Below are positions 41,267 through 50,200 of a stretch of DNA of 64,000 nt, piece by piece. Numbering within the stretch: position 1 is the stretch's first letter; each line of letters starts with the position of its first letter. Under the pieces are notes generated by a model that had not been told where the DNA came from, searched no databases, and worked only from the letters and a program-made list of their open reading frames with translations. The position numbers and the translations under genes were made by a program. The DNA is from Datnioides undecimradiatus (lineage: Eukaryota > Chordata > Actinopteri > Lobotiformes > Datnioididae). The stretch lies in NCBI GenBank assembly GCA_008933995.1, contig WARS01000033.1, positions 3,407,813-3,471,812 of the forward strand, read 5' to 3'.

Positions 41267-44200
41267 GTAGGTCCACTGTATTTACGTTACTGGGCAAAAA
41301 ATATGGGACTCATGCCTAACGACAGGTTTTGATATAAACACAAGGCAATTATTTGAACCTGATGTTTTCTTTGTCTTAGGGACATTATGATGAAGAATAC
41401 TTTCTACCTCACACCAGGGAGAAAAGGAATGGTGAGACTGATTAATTGGTATTATTGAAAATGATGATATGAATATGAAAAGTTTGACACTTGTTTGTAT
41501 TCTTGGTGAGAGCTAGATGAGAAGACTGATACCTCTCTTATATCTGTTCTTGACATATGAGTCCTGGAGCCTGGGGAATTGCTTAGCTCAGCTTATCTTA
41601 GCATGACTTTACTAGTCTGTAGTTGTTCTACTGCAATCACTGAAATCGAGTTTTTTACCTTTGGCCAGAGCTGGACTTGTGCTAAGCTAAGCTAACTGTC
41701 TCCTTTACATGGCTTTACATTTAGCCTACAGACACGAGAGCGGTCCCAATCTTATCTCTTAGCAAAAACATTAAATAGCATATTTCTTAACATATTGTTC
41801 TTGTCAGAAGTTAACACTGTTCATTTTTCAATCTTCTATCCTTGCAGTGCTCCCAGAACCACGGAACTACATTGTTGATGTTGTAATCAATGACTCTAAT
41901 GTGGAGACATTTGAGCAGTTTGAGGCCACCTTGAATGCTACAACTTTTCCCATAAAGCTTGACAACAACACAGACATCTCGGACATTAGCATCACAACGG
42001 GTGGGCAGCCTAACCTTCTCTGCACAACTTGATATAAAACAGCCGAGGTTAACAGCGTGAACTTACTGTTATTCTCTGCTGACAGTGTGCTCCTCAACTG
42101 CTACCGGCTTCCAGTGCAGATGTGGGGAACAATATGCCTGGCCGTACAGCATCTGTATCCTATATGGAGCCTGTGATTACATATCCAGTGGCATCTGTAA
42201 ATGCATCAGTGCCCTTCCAGCTGATGGCCAGTTCTGCCAGCCAGTATCAGGTAATCAACTCATCATTTATTGTTAAATCCAATCACAGTGACATGTTGGA
42301 ACTTATAACCAGTGGGAGTCAGTTTGGGTCAACCCATTGGAAACCAAGGCATGTTAGTTTAAATCGGTAAACTTCATTCACAGTTTTAAAAATGCTGTAC
42401 ATAAAAAAAGGAAAATACCAAAGCAGTAAATTCAGAAATTTATTATAATTATATTTATTTATTTAAATGTTCTTGTGGAGGTTGACATTAAACAGCACAG
42501 GTTCAGTTACCAGTAACAGTCATTAATGTAGTGAAACACAGCATGATCCCTCACTGGCTTCCCACCCTAGCCTCAATGAAGTGCCCTTCTATACACCTCC
42601 ACAGGAGAATCAAGCAGGTTTCTTTTAAAATGAATGAATGCAATGAATTCTTGACAGTTCCCATCTGGTATTTCGCCCACAGTGCTGCTGGCTCAGGTCG
42701 AGTACACTGTGGATGTTGAGCTGAATGTCTCGGACATCGAGACAGTGGACTACATTAGGAGCCTCTTGAACAATGGCAGCTTCTCCCTGGTTCTGAGTCC
42801 CACCGTGAACATCACACACATTGACATCACCACAGGTAAGAATGGACCTTCGTCTGATTCAGATACTGTGAATGATGTGAACGGTGTCAAGGGTAGTCAA
42901 GTGTGTTGTGCCGCAGTTAACAGAGTGATGAATTCCATCAGTTAATTGTACATATTGAACTCTTCTTTGATTAAAACATTTTTTACATTGTTTTATATGA
43001 ATGCTTCTGGCCAGTCATCTGCTTTGGATCGATGCACAATCAAATATTTATCGTTTAATTTCTTACCTATTAACTCTGAATATCTGGAGGGAGCAACGTG
43101 ATACAGCAGCTAAAGTCCTCACCTGCTTTCTTGACCTTGTCTTTTATTGATTTTACAAGTTATATTGAATGCCATAGACTTTTTCTGCGACAAGGAAACA
43201 TAGCATAACTTGTTTTTCATATTCTGACAACACGTGGTTCTATGTCTTTCTGTGTTGGCGTTTCAGTTCCTTAATTAAACTGCATGAAAATGATACCAAT
43301 TGCACAATGGTGAGAAATGTGTTCCTGTAAACATTTCTTTTCACATTACTTCCAGAACCAGCACGCCTTTTATTCCTGAAGTTATAGGATTCATCTCAAA
43401 CAGTTTCTGACATATTGGCTCATGCATGACTCTTTTTCATTTTGCATCATAATTCTGATAATAATCTCTAAAGCACCCTGTCACATTTCTCTGGAAATGC
43501 TTATGGACCACCATCCACTGGCATCAGCTGTAACTAGAATAATATTGAGATTTATTAAGGCCGATCAAACTGAGGTTAGAACAATACGAAAAGGCAACAG
43601 CTCTAACACCATATGTTAAAAAACAAACAGCAGTGGTTATGGGAGAGGACAGAAGAAGCCAGAAAGTTCTGATCCAAAGATCTGTTTGAGTTTTATTTGT
43701 GACTCAGCTCTAATTTTTGATTTTGCACGAAATATTGGACAATTTAAACTGTTTGAGCGGTGGTAAGTGATTTAACTAAAAGTGTCTAGGGAGGTTTATG
43801 GAGGAACTTTGGTAAAGCTGTTCACACATGTTAAAGATAGCTTTATTAAAGATAGTATGGATATGCTGATGGTGTTTTATGTTATGGGTGAAAAAGGTTG
43901 AATTCTGTTGAATACTGAAATACAATTAGAATTGTGTCACAGTACTTCCAAATCCTCGCTGTCACTTTCCAACAATGGTTCAGTGAAGGCTTTTGTTATA
44001 TACAACATAGGTCCCTTTGCTGAGCACATGAGATTATTATATTAATAGCAGCAGGTGTGCACAAGGTAATACTTTACCACAGTTTACAACAGTGCATGCT
44101 GTTGTGACACATTTGTTTTGGTTGTTTTGGCTTTCTGGTCCAACACATTCAGTCAGTTACAATGTCACCATGAAATTAAAGGTGCTGGCTTTCACCTTTT

Positions 44201-47200: not shown

Positions 47201-50200
47201 ATCACTACAGGTGCAGGAACATCTTCTTTCACTCTGGTTTTACTTTACTCAGAGTAAATATGGATGTTGGTAAAGTAAATATGTTAAATTCAAGTTAACT
47301 CTGCAGTATGACTACTTAAGTATGACAGTTTTAAACCAGTTTCTAGTCCCTGACTGTATAACATGACAGCGGTATTAACTTTGTCAATACAAAATCATTT
47401 CTGGCATACTTAAATTTAAATTAGCAGTCAGTGACTTCACATATCATGCGTGTTTTTAGCTTCGACATTAAACAGATTAAATCCATCATTTGTTTTGTCT
47501 GCAGTTTGCTCCCCGAGCAGCGGAGGGTACCAGTGCAGATGTGAGAATCAGTATCGTTTGCCGTGTGACCAGTGTTTTCATGGACCGTGACAACATCACT
47601 GATGACACATGTGGGTGCATCAGTGGCATTCCTCCTGATGGACAATACTGCCGATCTGCTGATCAACACAGTGTAGTGTGTTTGTAGTAATTATTCCAGC
47701 TGCTTTTATTGCAGGGAAACCATCTTTAAATGATGACAGATGATTTGGAATAAAAATTCAATTCAGTTCAATTCAAAGTAAGAAAATAAAAATGTATTTA
47801 GAACTATGGCATATTCTCTCTCTTCCTGCTTACAGACTTTACAGCCTGTCCAACTCCACCACCACCAACAAGTAAAGACCTGACAAGACAATACTTGACC
47901 TGTGATAGCACTGTACTGAGTGCACCTGATTCAACAGCTGTAGCTAAATGATGCATCTCTTTCAAATGTTCTCCCCACAGCTCCTCCTCCTCTTCTTTAT
48001 AAATACCTGATTTCTGTTGAGTTGAACGTCTCAGATATTTGCCGTCATAAATCAGCTGAGGAGACTTCTGAGCAACATCAGTTACCCCATCAGCATCAAC
48101 AACCGCATACAAATCTCTGAACTCAACATCACTACAGGTGCAGGAACATCTTCTTTCACTCTGGTTTTACTTTACTCAGAGTAAATATGGATGTTGAGTA
48201 AAGTAAATGTCAATTTAAATTCGAAGTTAACTCTGCAGTATGACTGTAAAAAGTATGACAGTTACGAACCCACAGTTTCTAGTCCCTGACTGTATAACAT
48301 GACAATGATGCTTTTGTCAATACAAATCATTTCTGGCATACTTAATTTAAATTAGCAGTCAGTGACTTCATATCATCGCGTGTTTTTAAGCTTCGACATT
48401 AAACAGATTAAATCCATCATTTGTTTTTGTCTGCAGTTTGCTCTGACAGCGGAGTACCAGTGCAGATGCTTGAGAATCAGTATCGTTTGCCGATGTGACC
48501 GAGTGTTTCCTGCATGGACCATGTGACAACATCACTGTTATTGACACGTAATGCAAGATTCGCATCAGTGGCATTCCTCCTGATGGACAATACGCCGATC
48601 TGCTGATCAACACAGTGAGAATGTGTTTGTAGTAATTATTCCAGCTGCTTTATTGCAGGAAACCATCTTTAAATGATGACAGATGATTTGGAATAAAAAT
48701 TCAATTCAGTTCAATTCAAAAGTAAAGAAAAGTAAAATGTATTTAGAACTATGTATATTCTCTCTCTTCCTGCTTACAGACTTTACAGCCTGTCCAACTC
48801 CACCACCACCAACAAGTAAGACTGACAAAGACAATACTTGACTGTGATAGCACTGTACTGAGTGCAGTTCAGCAGCTGTAGCTAAATGATGCATCTCTTT
48901 CAAATGTTCTCCCCACAGCTCCTCCTCCTCTTCTTTTTATAAATACCTGATTTCTGTTGAGTTAGGAAGCGTCTCAGATGTTGCCGTCATAAATCAGCTG
49001 AGAGACTTTCTGAGCAACATCGGTGCCCCATCAGCATCAACAACGCATACAAATCTCTGAACTCCAACATCACTACAGGTGCAGGAACATCTTCTTTCAC
49101 TCTGGTTTTACTTTACTCAGAGTAAATATGGATGTTGGTAAAGTAAATCCATCATTTGTTTTGTCTGCAGTTTGCTCCCCGAGCAGCGTAGGGTACCAGT
49201 GCAGATGTGAAAATCAGTATCGTTTGCCGTGTGACCAGTGTTTCCTGCATGGACCATGTGACAACATCACTGATGACACATGTGGGTGCATCAGTGGCAT
49301 TCCTCCTGATGGACAATACTGCCAGTCTGCTGATCAACACAGTGAGTGTGTTTGAAGTAGTATTCAACTGCTTTATTGCAGGAAACCATCTTTAAATGAT
49401 GACAGATGATTTGGAATTAAAATAGAAAAATGAAGATAAAAATGAAAGATAAAGTCACTAATCAGACATAAATGAGGTAGGGAGATGTTACTTTCATGAG
49501 TGTCACGATGCTTGGTTATCAGTGAAAATGAAACAAATCTATGAAACATGCTGTTACAGTCCAGGTGGCGCTTGCAGGTCGGTCTGTTGCAGCATCATGG
49601 AAAGTTTTCCTCTGCTGTTGAAGCTGCTCTTTTTGGCCTCCACACTCTCCAAATGTTTCCAGTCTTATTTCATGAATCTGTCACTGTGGTCGCCCTGATT
49701 TAGACATTTACATTCTAACTCATTAAAGCTTTGGAAACTTGCATGTCTGGCTTCTCTCCAGATACTGTATCATTATTTACAACATGATTCCTGTGTCTCT
49801 CTCTAAGTCACTCCTGACTGTGAACTTTTGGAACTGTGAGTAGACAGGGAGCTTGCCTTTGTAAACCTTTGTAAACACTGCCATCTGTTGTTGACAGTGC
49901 ATGAGTACATGCTAATGCTGTTTCCCCAAATAGAGGCTGACCCAGCTCTTTAAAATGTAAAATGTATATAGAACTATATATATTCTCTCTCTTCCTGCTT
50001 ACAGACTTTACAGCCTGTCCTCTCACAACAACTCCATCACCAACAACAGCAACAACAAGTAAGACTGACAAGACAATACTTCACCTGTGAAAGCACTGTA
50101 CTGACTGCACCTGATTCAGCAACTGTAGCTAAAATCTATCTATCTATATATAGATGTGTGTGTGTGTGTGTGTGTGCGTGTGTATATATACACACACACA

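Follow-up and report, generated by a model that had tools for sequence, protein, structure and literature searches.

Among adhesion GPCRs, ADGRE5 (CD97) and ADGRE2 have N-terminal regions in which the number of modules (EGF-like repeats) changes, and variation of such ectodomains through the splicing of repeated modules is already established, CD97 being an example. One report described three layouts of ADGRE5, with 3 to 5 repeats, which differed in CD55 affinity (PMC13197933). The gene described here shares a changing N-terminal module number with these receptors; however, its modules belong to another family, and its copies lie within the gene, where those receptors vary by splicing. ADGRF1 and ADGRF5 (GPR110/GPR116, Ig-Hepta) are nearer, carrying an A-B pair N-terminal to GAIN/GPS and the seven-transmembrane (7TM) domain, but they have one such pair, compared with six to eight here. 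The SEA domain followed by Ig domains and the furin-like site before A presumably resemble those of ADGRF5, which is not known to have a long Ser/Thr/Pro stalk or linker exons. According to two reports, fish genes of the ADGRF1, 2, 4, 5 group are without clear one-to-one partners (PMC8584163, PMC4335454); one-to-one identity of the present gene with ADGRF5 (GPR116) is thus not established, and the published fish data speak against clear orthology. No description of an A-B array in fish ADGRF genes was found in titles and abstract openings, a search with most subscription journals outside its coverage.

The window was the whole analysed stretch of 64,000 nt, and all coordinates are positions within it on the + strand. 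A receptor gene spanned about 41.2-61.3 kb. Its domains place it among the ADGRF-type adhesion GPCRs, as the earlier note had proposed: Pfam matches above the cut-offs were obtained for SEA (PF01390, 38.6 bits, cut-off 26.4; exons joined by eye), which lay N-terminal to GAIN, for I-set (30.3 bits, cut-off 23.7) between SEA and GAIN, for GPS (PF01825, 57.8 bits, cut-off 22.5) and for 7tm_2. A second Ig domain between SEA and GAIN was weak (Ig_ADGRF3, 18.3 bits, cut-off 27), and the GAIN model itself scored 16.7 bits, below its cut-off of 26.5. Comparison of the 7TM domain with the PDB gave 16 sequences at E <=1e-10, the top four being ADGRF1 (E 2e-76) and the next ADGRD1 (5e-17); no ADGRF member other than ADGRF1 was among these 16. 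The window also held a neighbouring gene with four stretches of TNFR_c6 (2514-3449) and a Death domain (19455-19778) by Pfam, which we take to be TNFRSF21. Mammalian ADGRF genes sit beside TNFRSF21, and the location of the receptor agrees with ADGRF membership. Two further ADGRF-like 7TM genes lay downstream on the same contig. The features of the receptor gene were as follows.

41165..41266, +, signal-peptide exon (MAISKNGWTICALLLTLIILETGNV...); ATG placed by exon scan, exon end by eye
41380..41431, +, short exon ending in the putative furin-like site HTREKRN, just before A1; by eye
41848..42000, +, A1, open, phase 1-1; exon translation, profile search
42086..42250, +, B1, open, 8 Cys, PF25387; exon translation, Pfam
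42683..42835, +, A2, open; exon translation, profile search
44473..44637, +, B2, open, 8 Cys, PF25387; exon translation, Pfam
44768..44923, +, A3, open, no B between it and A4; exon translation, profile search
45220..45366, +, A4, open; exon translation, profile search
45458..45628, +, B3, open, 9 Cys; exon translation, Pfam
45775..45816, +, linker L3 (DFSVCPVTTISPSP), one Cys; mini-exon scan
45953..46102, +, A5, open; exon translation, profile search
46227..46397, +, B4, open, 9 Cys; exon translation, Pfam
46912..46947, +, linker L4 (DFTACPTPPPPT), one Cys; mini-exon scan
47055..47210, +, A6, open, first exon of tandem unit U5; exon translation, unit alignment, profile search
47506..47671, +, B5, short indels disrupting the frame, ends approximate; exon translation, unit alignment
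47836..47871, +, linker L5; mini-exon scan
47981..48138, +, A7, frame broken, first exon of unit U6, ends approximate; exon translation, unit alignment
48438..48615, +, B6, several frame breaks, ends approximate; exon translation, unit alignment
48780..48815, +, linker L6; mini-exon scan
48919..49078, +, A8, frame broken, first exon of unit U7, ends approximate; exon translation, unit alignment
49171..49341, +, B7, open, 9 Cys, Trp of the other open copies replaced by Leu; exon translation, Pfam
50005..50058, +, linker L7 (DFTACPLTTTPSPTTATT), one Cys; exon scans
50438..55800, +, small candidate exons making up a Ser/Thr/Pro-rich stalk; scan restricted to phase 1-1 exons
56424..56907, +, SEA domain in three exons, GSVIIDF motif; Pfam, exons joined by eye
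56991..58460, +, Ig-like domains plus a Cys-rich piece, N-terminal to GAIN; Pfam
59510..60383, +, GAIN/GPS with the sequence CNHLTSFSILM; Pfam
60384..61300, +, 7TM domain, 7tm_2; Pfam, PDB search, last exon by eye

Exon translation and profile search placed eight A-like and seven B-like exons at 41848-49341, all on the + strand, in the order A1-B1-A2-B2-A3-A4-B3-L3-A5-B4-L4-A6-B5-L5-A7-B6-L6-A8-B7-L7. The places and coordinates of the eight A and seven B exons reported earlier were therefore borne out, but only 6 of 8 A (A1-A6) and 5 of 7 B (B1-B4, B7) were open; frameshifts were read in A7 (~47981), A8 (~48919), B5 (~47506) and B6 (~48438). The alternation of A and B described in the earlier note was not strict: A3 and A4 adjoined, a search with the B profile finding no B between them, and five small linker exons had gone unlisted. 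The array lay upstream of SEA as claimed, though not directly, the Ser/Thr/Pro-rich candidate exons at 50.0-55.8 kb standing between. All 11 open A/B exons were bounded by AG/GT and had lengths in multiples of three, and the open array and linker exons were of phase 1-1. With such symmetry, skipping of an exon preserves the frame, so that splicing can alter the copy number. A two-part module that is present once in the closest sister gene occurs in the row some six to eight times; the sequence of part of the row is of poor quality, so the exact number and the apparently broken copies are not yet trustworthy.

Scored with the profiles of their own modules, the open A copies gave E 1e-21 to 1e-24 and the open B copies 1e-28 to 1e-30, values that are not independent because the profiles were built from the modules they score; one mononucleotide shuffle of 173 kb gave best E values of 0.14 (A) and 0.25 (B). 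B6 was recovered by profile only as scraps (E 0.004 and 0.28). The five open B exons matched Pfam PF25387 (ADGRF3_N) at 45.3-56.8 bits (cut-off 31), and the broken B5 and B6 fell below that cut-off; with A1-B4 as query, the family was matched in four stretches (E 2.3e-55). In counts covering this one vertebrate genome, PF25387 had at least 12 matches at E up to 1 and at least six above the cut-off, five in the array and one in gene 2, the closest paralogue. The family resembles the B module but extends over B alone (60 positions); for A, Pfam gave no match, and none of the outside families compared covers it. A kinship of A with SEA found no support in sequence: hhalign of A against this gene's own SEA, a single sequence, gave a probability of 0.2, and Pfam found no SEA within the array. 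AlphaFold2 models from small alignments, of A1 with 6 sequences (pLDDT 70.7, pTM 0.37) and of B with 5 (pLDDT 55.3, pTM 0.35), were both judged too poor.

Where an open B exon had a ninth Cys, a one-Cys linker exon came next in 4 of 4 cases, an association resting on about five independent cases; the 8-Cys B1 and B2 had no linker exon next. The latter result holds for one-Cys mini-exons, since the scan was limited to those 27-63 bases long that encode a single Cys and have set donors and an acceptor rich in pyrimidines; other linker make-ups would escape it. This pattern, an observation new with the present analysis, suggests an A-B-L unit that an additional disulfide, between the ninth Cys of B and the Cys of the next linker exon, would close.

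Gene 2, on the same contig with its 7TM exons about 86 kb apart from those of this gene, had one clear A-B pair; no SEA was found in it by tblastn with this gene's SEA. Two remoter paralogues (gene 3 and the C466 gene) had one weak pair each, with B below the Pfam cut-off and A recognized by eye only. In the PDB, A5-B4 matched the ADGRF1 chain 7wxu_R once (residues 52-118, E 0.0024), and the pair of gene 2 matched the same chain at residues 84-148 (E 0.0083); searches with profile A, profile B and the pair A1-B1 gave chance-level matches only, with ADGRF1 absent. The earlier description of the array as expanded was supported against these relatives, though weakly in the case of gene 3 and the C466 gene, and among them the expansion appears, from sequence comparison, to be specific to this gene.

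The last units (47.05-49.36 kb) were near-identical tandem copies of an A-B-L unit of about 0.93 kb. Between U5 and U6, 888 aligned columns held 6 substitutions, whereas short indels numbered 45, with 3 more indels of five bases. Single-copy SEA, GAIN and 7TM exons nearby read open, and the threefold tandem repeat of the stalk (~0.71-0.74 kb, at ~50.5-52.7 kb) showed the same indel excess (14 v 31 and 12 v 18). In contrast, the tails of U4 and U7 had 24 intron substitutions and 13 short indels. The excess was not present in every comparison: A5-B4 compared with A8-B7 gave 29 v 20.

Six substitutions against 45 short indels suggest unpolished long-read sequence, and with copies so alike and differing in this way the base accuracy, and possibly the copy count, is unreliable there. 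Errors left in the assembly, and not decay, most likely account for the broken frames of the recent copies. Overall, we consider it fairly probable that this is an ADGRF receptor whose single ancestral A-B pair was multiplied in two stages, with the frameshifts of the recent copies most likely due to assembly error.

It is less probable, but a possibility of some weight, that the assembler falsely duplicated U6, and perhaps more, leaving a true count of seven A and six B or fewer. U6 may be such a duplicate, as it differs from U5 nowhere by more than five bases in the 888 columns. However, the structure of U4 is matched neither by U5/U6 (short tail) nor by U7 (~202-base intron deletion, long tail), and these two types also differ between themselves, which makes at least two of the recent units look genuine; moreover, all eight matches of a unit search lay in the array, with no second copy elsewhere in this assembly and hence no second haplotype for comparison. 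Real frameshifts are rather unlikely. U5-U7 would then be recent, decaying copies with their broken exons skipped, and the working receptor would have about five units. Such decay is suggested by the lost Trp of B7 and by codon differences among the recent copies that give no hint of purifying selection (synonymous and non-synonymous, respectively: 5 and 6 in B4 v B7, 0 and 1 in A5 v A6), and the short indels between U5 and U6 struck exons in proportion to length (17 of 45, exons making up 361 of 926 bases). In the four-way alignment, U6 and U7 also had as many private substitutions as short indels (U4 54/1, U5 2/6, U6 14/13, U7 19/16), counts partly due to misaligned columns. Against decay, the ratio of indels to substitutions between U5 and U6 is opposite to that of the older duplicated introns of the same gene, and the open single-copy exons and the stalk repeats speak for sequence error. 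That the array is a separate upstream gene for a secreted repeat protein, as its distance from SEA and the repeats between might suggest, is very improbable, since the array exons, linkers and first SEA exon are all phase 1, in gene 2 the A, B and linker exons likewise precede those for GAIN and 7TM, and the ADGRF1 chain carries its A-B-like stretch within the receptor itself.

The two-stage reading starts from what was directly observed, namely the modules, their order, the exon phases, the single pair in the closest paralogue and the indel pattern. In an old stage, a single N-terminal A-B pair would have given rise to A1-B1, A2-B2, A3, A4-B3 and A5-B4, with frames and shared cysteines kept; A1-A5 and B1-B4 are divergent and open. 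In a recent stage, the A-B-L unit would have added two or three near-identical copies. If the array is translated, a furin-type cut before A1 and cleavage at SEA after the stalk would yield an N-terminal fragment that is long and multivalent, an enlarged counterpart of the mammalian GPR116 fragment that would be either held or released, in which the ninth Cys of B would pair with the Cys of the next linker exon and splicing could change the copy number with the frame intact. The array likely forms, as far as sequence can tell, a lengthened, multivalent N-terminal fragment. The GSVI-type motif in SEA is a cut motif, and the position of SEA between array and GAIN makes it less likely that the array pulls the tethered agonist, weakening a role that the earlier note had suggested. 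A bolder and doubtful extension is a live, still-expanding A-B-L array, varying in unit number among haplotypes and splice forms and cut free between the furin-like site and SEA to give a multivalent fragment, either soluble or loosely held, which would tune avidity by gene-level copy number. A gene-level expansion, with a sister gene of one pair on this contig as internal control, would make a little-studied module testable by dose; where long-read assemblies contain tandem exon arrays, frameshifts can mimic pseudogenes and call for caution. In the module trees, the A5+A6 grouping alone was resolved (91/88), the rest of the duplication order being without resolution; compared with the first copy, the early copies were 32-36% identical for A and 44-48% for B.

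The array of alternating A and B module exons (41848-49341) in the ADGRF-type adhesion GPCR gene at about 41.2-61.3 kb (hereafter the array gene) was investigated by exon-by-exon translation, which gave the following places, numbered from 5' to 3'.

41848, 42683, 44768, 45220, 45953 and 47055 (starts), + strand: A1 to A6, open A exons
42086, 44473, 45458, 46227 and 49171 (starts), + strand: B1, B2, B3, B4 and B7, open B exons
about 47981 and 48919, + strand: A7 and A8, frame-broken but recognisable
about 47506 and 48438, + strand: B5 and B6, frame-broken but recognisable

All 11 open exons had AG and GT at their borders, a length divisible by three and phase 1 at both ends. 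Profiles were built from A1-A5 plus the A of a neighbouring paralogue (gene 2), and from the five open B modules plus the B of gene 2. In the six-frame translation of 173 kb of the contig, 30 kb around a related gene on contig C466 (the C466 gene) and 20 kb upstream, they recovered the array places, the pair of gene 2 and some weak fragments. Matches to the open copies are to be expected, the profiles having come from the array's own modules. One mononucleotide shuffle gave best E values of 0.14 and 0.25. The eight A and seven B places of the earlier note were thus recovered by translation and profile search, but only six A and five B are usable as assembled. The estimate of the true copy number is seven or eight for A and six or seven for B, and at least six and five, respectively, are readable. 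A3 directly adjoined A4 (44923-45220) with no B between them; either the intervening B has been lost, or A3 arose by partial duplication. In B7 (49171-49341), and in B5 and B6 where readable, Leu stood where the remaining open B modules have Trp.

A2-A6 shared 32-36% identity with A1, and B2, B3, B4 and B7 shared 44-48% with B1 while retaining eight common cysteines. Given this low identity to the first copy and the kept cysteines, copies A1-A5 and B1-B4 are, judging from their sequences, old and still open. A single codon distinguished A5 from A6, and eleven distinguished B4 from B7, five of them synonymous. The region 47.05-49.36 kb was a run of tandem units with a spacing of about 0.93 kb. 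Each A-B-linker (A-B-L) unit was compared, U4 holding A5-B4, and U5, U6 and U7 starting at A6, A7 and A8. Over 888 aligned columns, U5 and U6 showed 6 substitutions vs 45 short indels (17 exonic), with three indels of five bases. The tails of U4 and U7, which are older duplicates, showed 24 intron substitutions and 13 short indels, and part of these tails 13 vs 1. Repeats in the stalk showed 14 vs 31 and 12 vs 18; less one-sided pairs were U5/U7 (9 vs 14), U6/U7 (10 vs 25) and A5-B4/A8-B7 (29 vs 20). Private substitutions and short indels in a four-way alignment with some misaligned columns were 54/1 for U4, 2/6 for U5, 14/13 for U6 and 19/16 for U7. The indel excess in near-identical repeats beside open single-copy exons fits residual long-read errors; for bacterial assemblies, PMC8812927 describes polishing with short reads as unreliable within repeats. 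An assembly-wide search found the A-B-L unit nowhere else. U7 stood out through its long tail and the loss of about 202 bases from an intron. Since U5 and U6 had no structural difference, one of them may be a duplicate created in assembly. In its older half the array is a real expansion; the base accuracy of the recent half is in doubt pending accurate reads.

The linker exons, absent from the earlier note, were five small exons (L3-L7) with one Cys each (DFSVCP or DFTACP), positioned after B3, B4, B5, B6 and B7 (45775-50058); one more followed the B of gene 2. Neither B1 nor B2, nor the B-like stretch of a further paralogue, gene 3, was followed by one in the scan that detected these linkers. 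Nine cysteines were present in 4/4 open B modules preceding linkers (B3, B4, B7 and that of gene 2) and eight in B1 and B2, the extra Cys lying two residues past the conserved Trp position. Because the odd Cys in B is matched by the linker Cys, the pattern, in about five independent cases, suggests a putative disulfide closing the A-B-L unit.

A genome search with the 7TM domain returned ten matches. The four strong ones were the array gene itself and the three genes below.

C478:3547800-3555200 (L021 to L022): gene 2, ADGRF-type neighbour with one A-B pair; 7TM match at C478:3554429, 66% identity
C478:3570005: gene 3, 34% identity
contig C466: C466 gene, 36% identity

Gene 2 had a single A and a single B by profile, the B confirmed by Pfam (44.5 bits), followed by a one-Cys linker, GAIN and 7TM; tblastn with the array gene's SEA as query did not detect a SEA domain in it. 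Its single pair and linker make gene 2 a natural control against which the array can be compared. In gene 3 and in the C466 gene alike, a single A-like stretch, diverged and missed by the A profile, was recognised by eye; each gene also had a single B-like stretch (22 and 19.5 bits), both under the PF25387 cut-off of 31. Genome-wide, PF25387 gave at least 12 matches at E up to 1, at least six of them over the cut-off (five in the array gene, one in gene 2). The ADGRF1 chain 7wxu_R of the PDB gave one match to the gene 2 pair, at residues 84-148 (E 0.0083), and one to A5-B4, at residues 52-118 (E 0.0024); it was missed by the pair A1-B1 and by both profiles as queries. With one clear pair in gene 2, one matching stretch in the ADGRF1 chain and one weak, sub-threshold pair each in gene 3 and the C466 gene, the expansion appears, by sequence comparison, specific to the array gene among these relatives.

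The B module corresponded to Pfam PF25387 (ADGRF3_N, E 2.3e-55, four stretches). The A module had no Pfam match, a profile search of the PDB found no solved relative, and it showed no similarity to the array gene's own SEA domain. Downstream, SEA, I-set Ig, GPS and 7tm_2 scored over the Pfam cut-offs, and the GAIN model under its own. Among solved structures, ADGRF1 was closest to the 7TM (E 2e-76), followed by ADGRD1 (5e-17). A gene that we take to be TNFRSF21-like was marked at 2.5-19.8 kb by a Death domain and four TNFR_c6 stretches; TNFRSF21 neighbours the ADGRF cluster in mammals. An open frame at 29355-29627 (CARD match of 18.6 bits, below the cut-off of 23.9) may be the C-terminal part of this TNFRSF21-like gene.

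According to PMC8584163 and PMC4335454, fish genes of the ADGRF group cannot be paired clearly, one to one, with mammalian ADGRF1, 2, 4 and 5. The array gene is therefore best called ADGRF-type with a GPR116-like order, rather than ADGRF5. The earlier reading is supported in part, in that the pair is multiplied relative to the relatives examined.

The order read from the sequence was a signal exon, REKR before A1, the array, the stalk, SEA with GSVIIDF, Ig, GPS with CNHLTSFSILM, and 7TM. A furin-type cut before A1 and SEA cleavage would leave the array and stalk as an N-terminal fragment; judging by the titles of papers cited in PMC3726689, SEA cleavage and an EGF2-like fragment have been reported for Ig-Hepta. 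The array had been proposed to change ligand avidity or the pull on the tethered agonist. In such an arrangement force on the array would load the SEA joint first, so that a direct pull is less likely than changed avidity, or shielding. A precedent for affinity set by module number is ADGRE5: according to PMC13197933, CD55 binding differs between its forms carrying 3 to 5 EGF-like repeats. The symmetric exons would permit splice forms with fewer modules.

The stalk between the array and the SEA domain consisted of the following candidates.

50.0-55.8 kb, + strand: small Ser/Thr/Pro-rich candidate exons (scan restricted to phase 1-1 exons)

Within it, 50510-52671 was a threefold tandem repeat with a unit of about 0.71-0.74 kb. 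Indels outnumbered substitutions between the copies, and each copy held a small Ser/Thr/Pro-rich exon (STPTATTHNITTPTMPPT).
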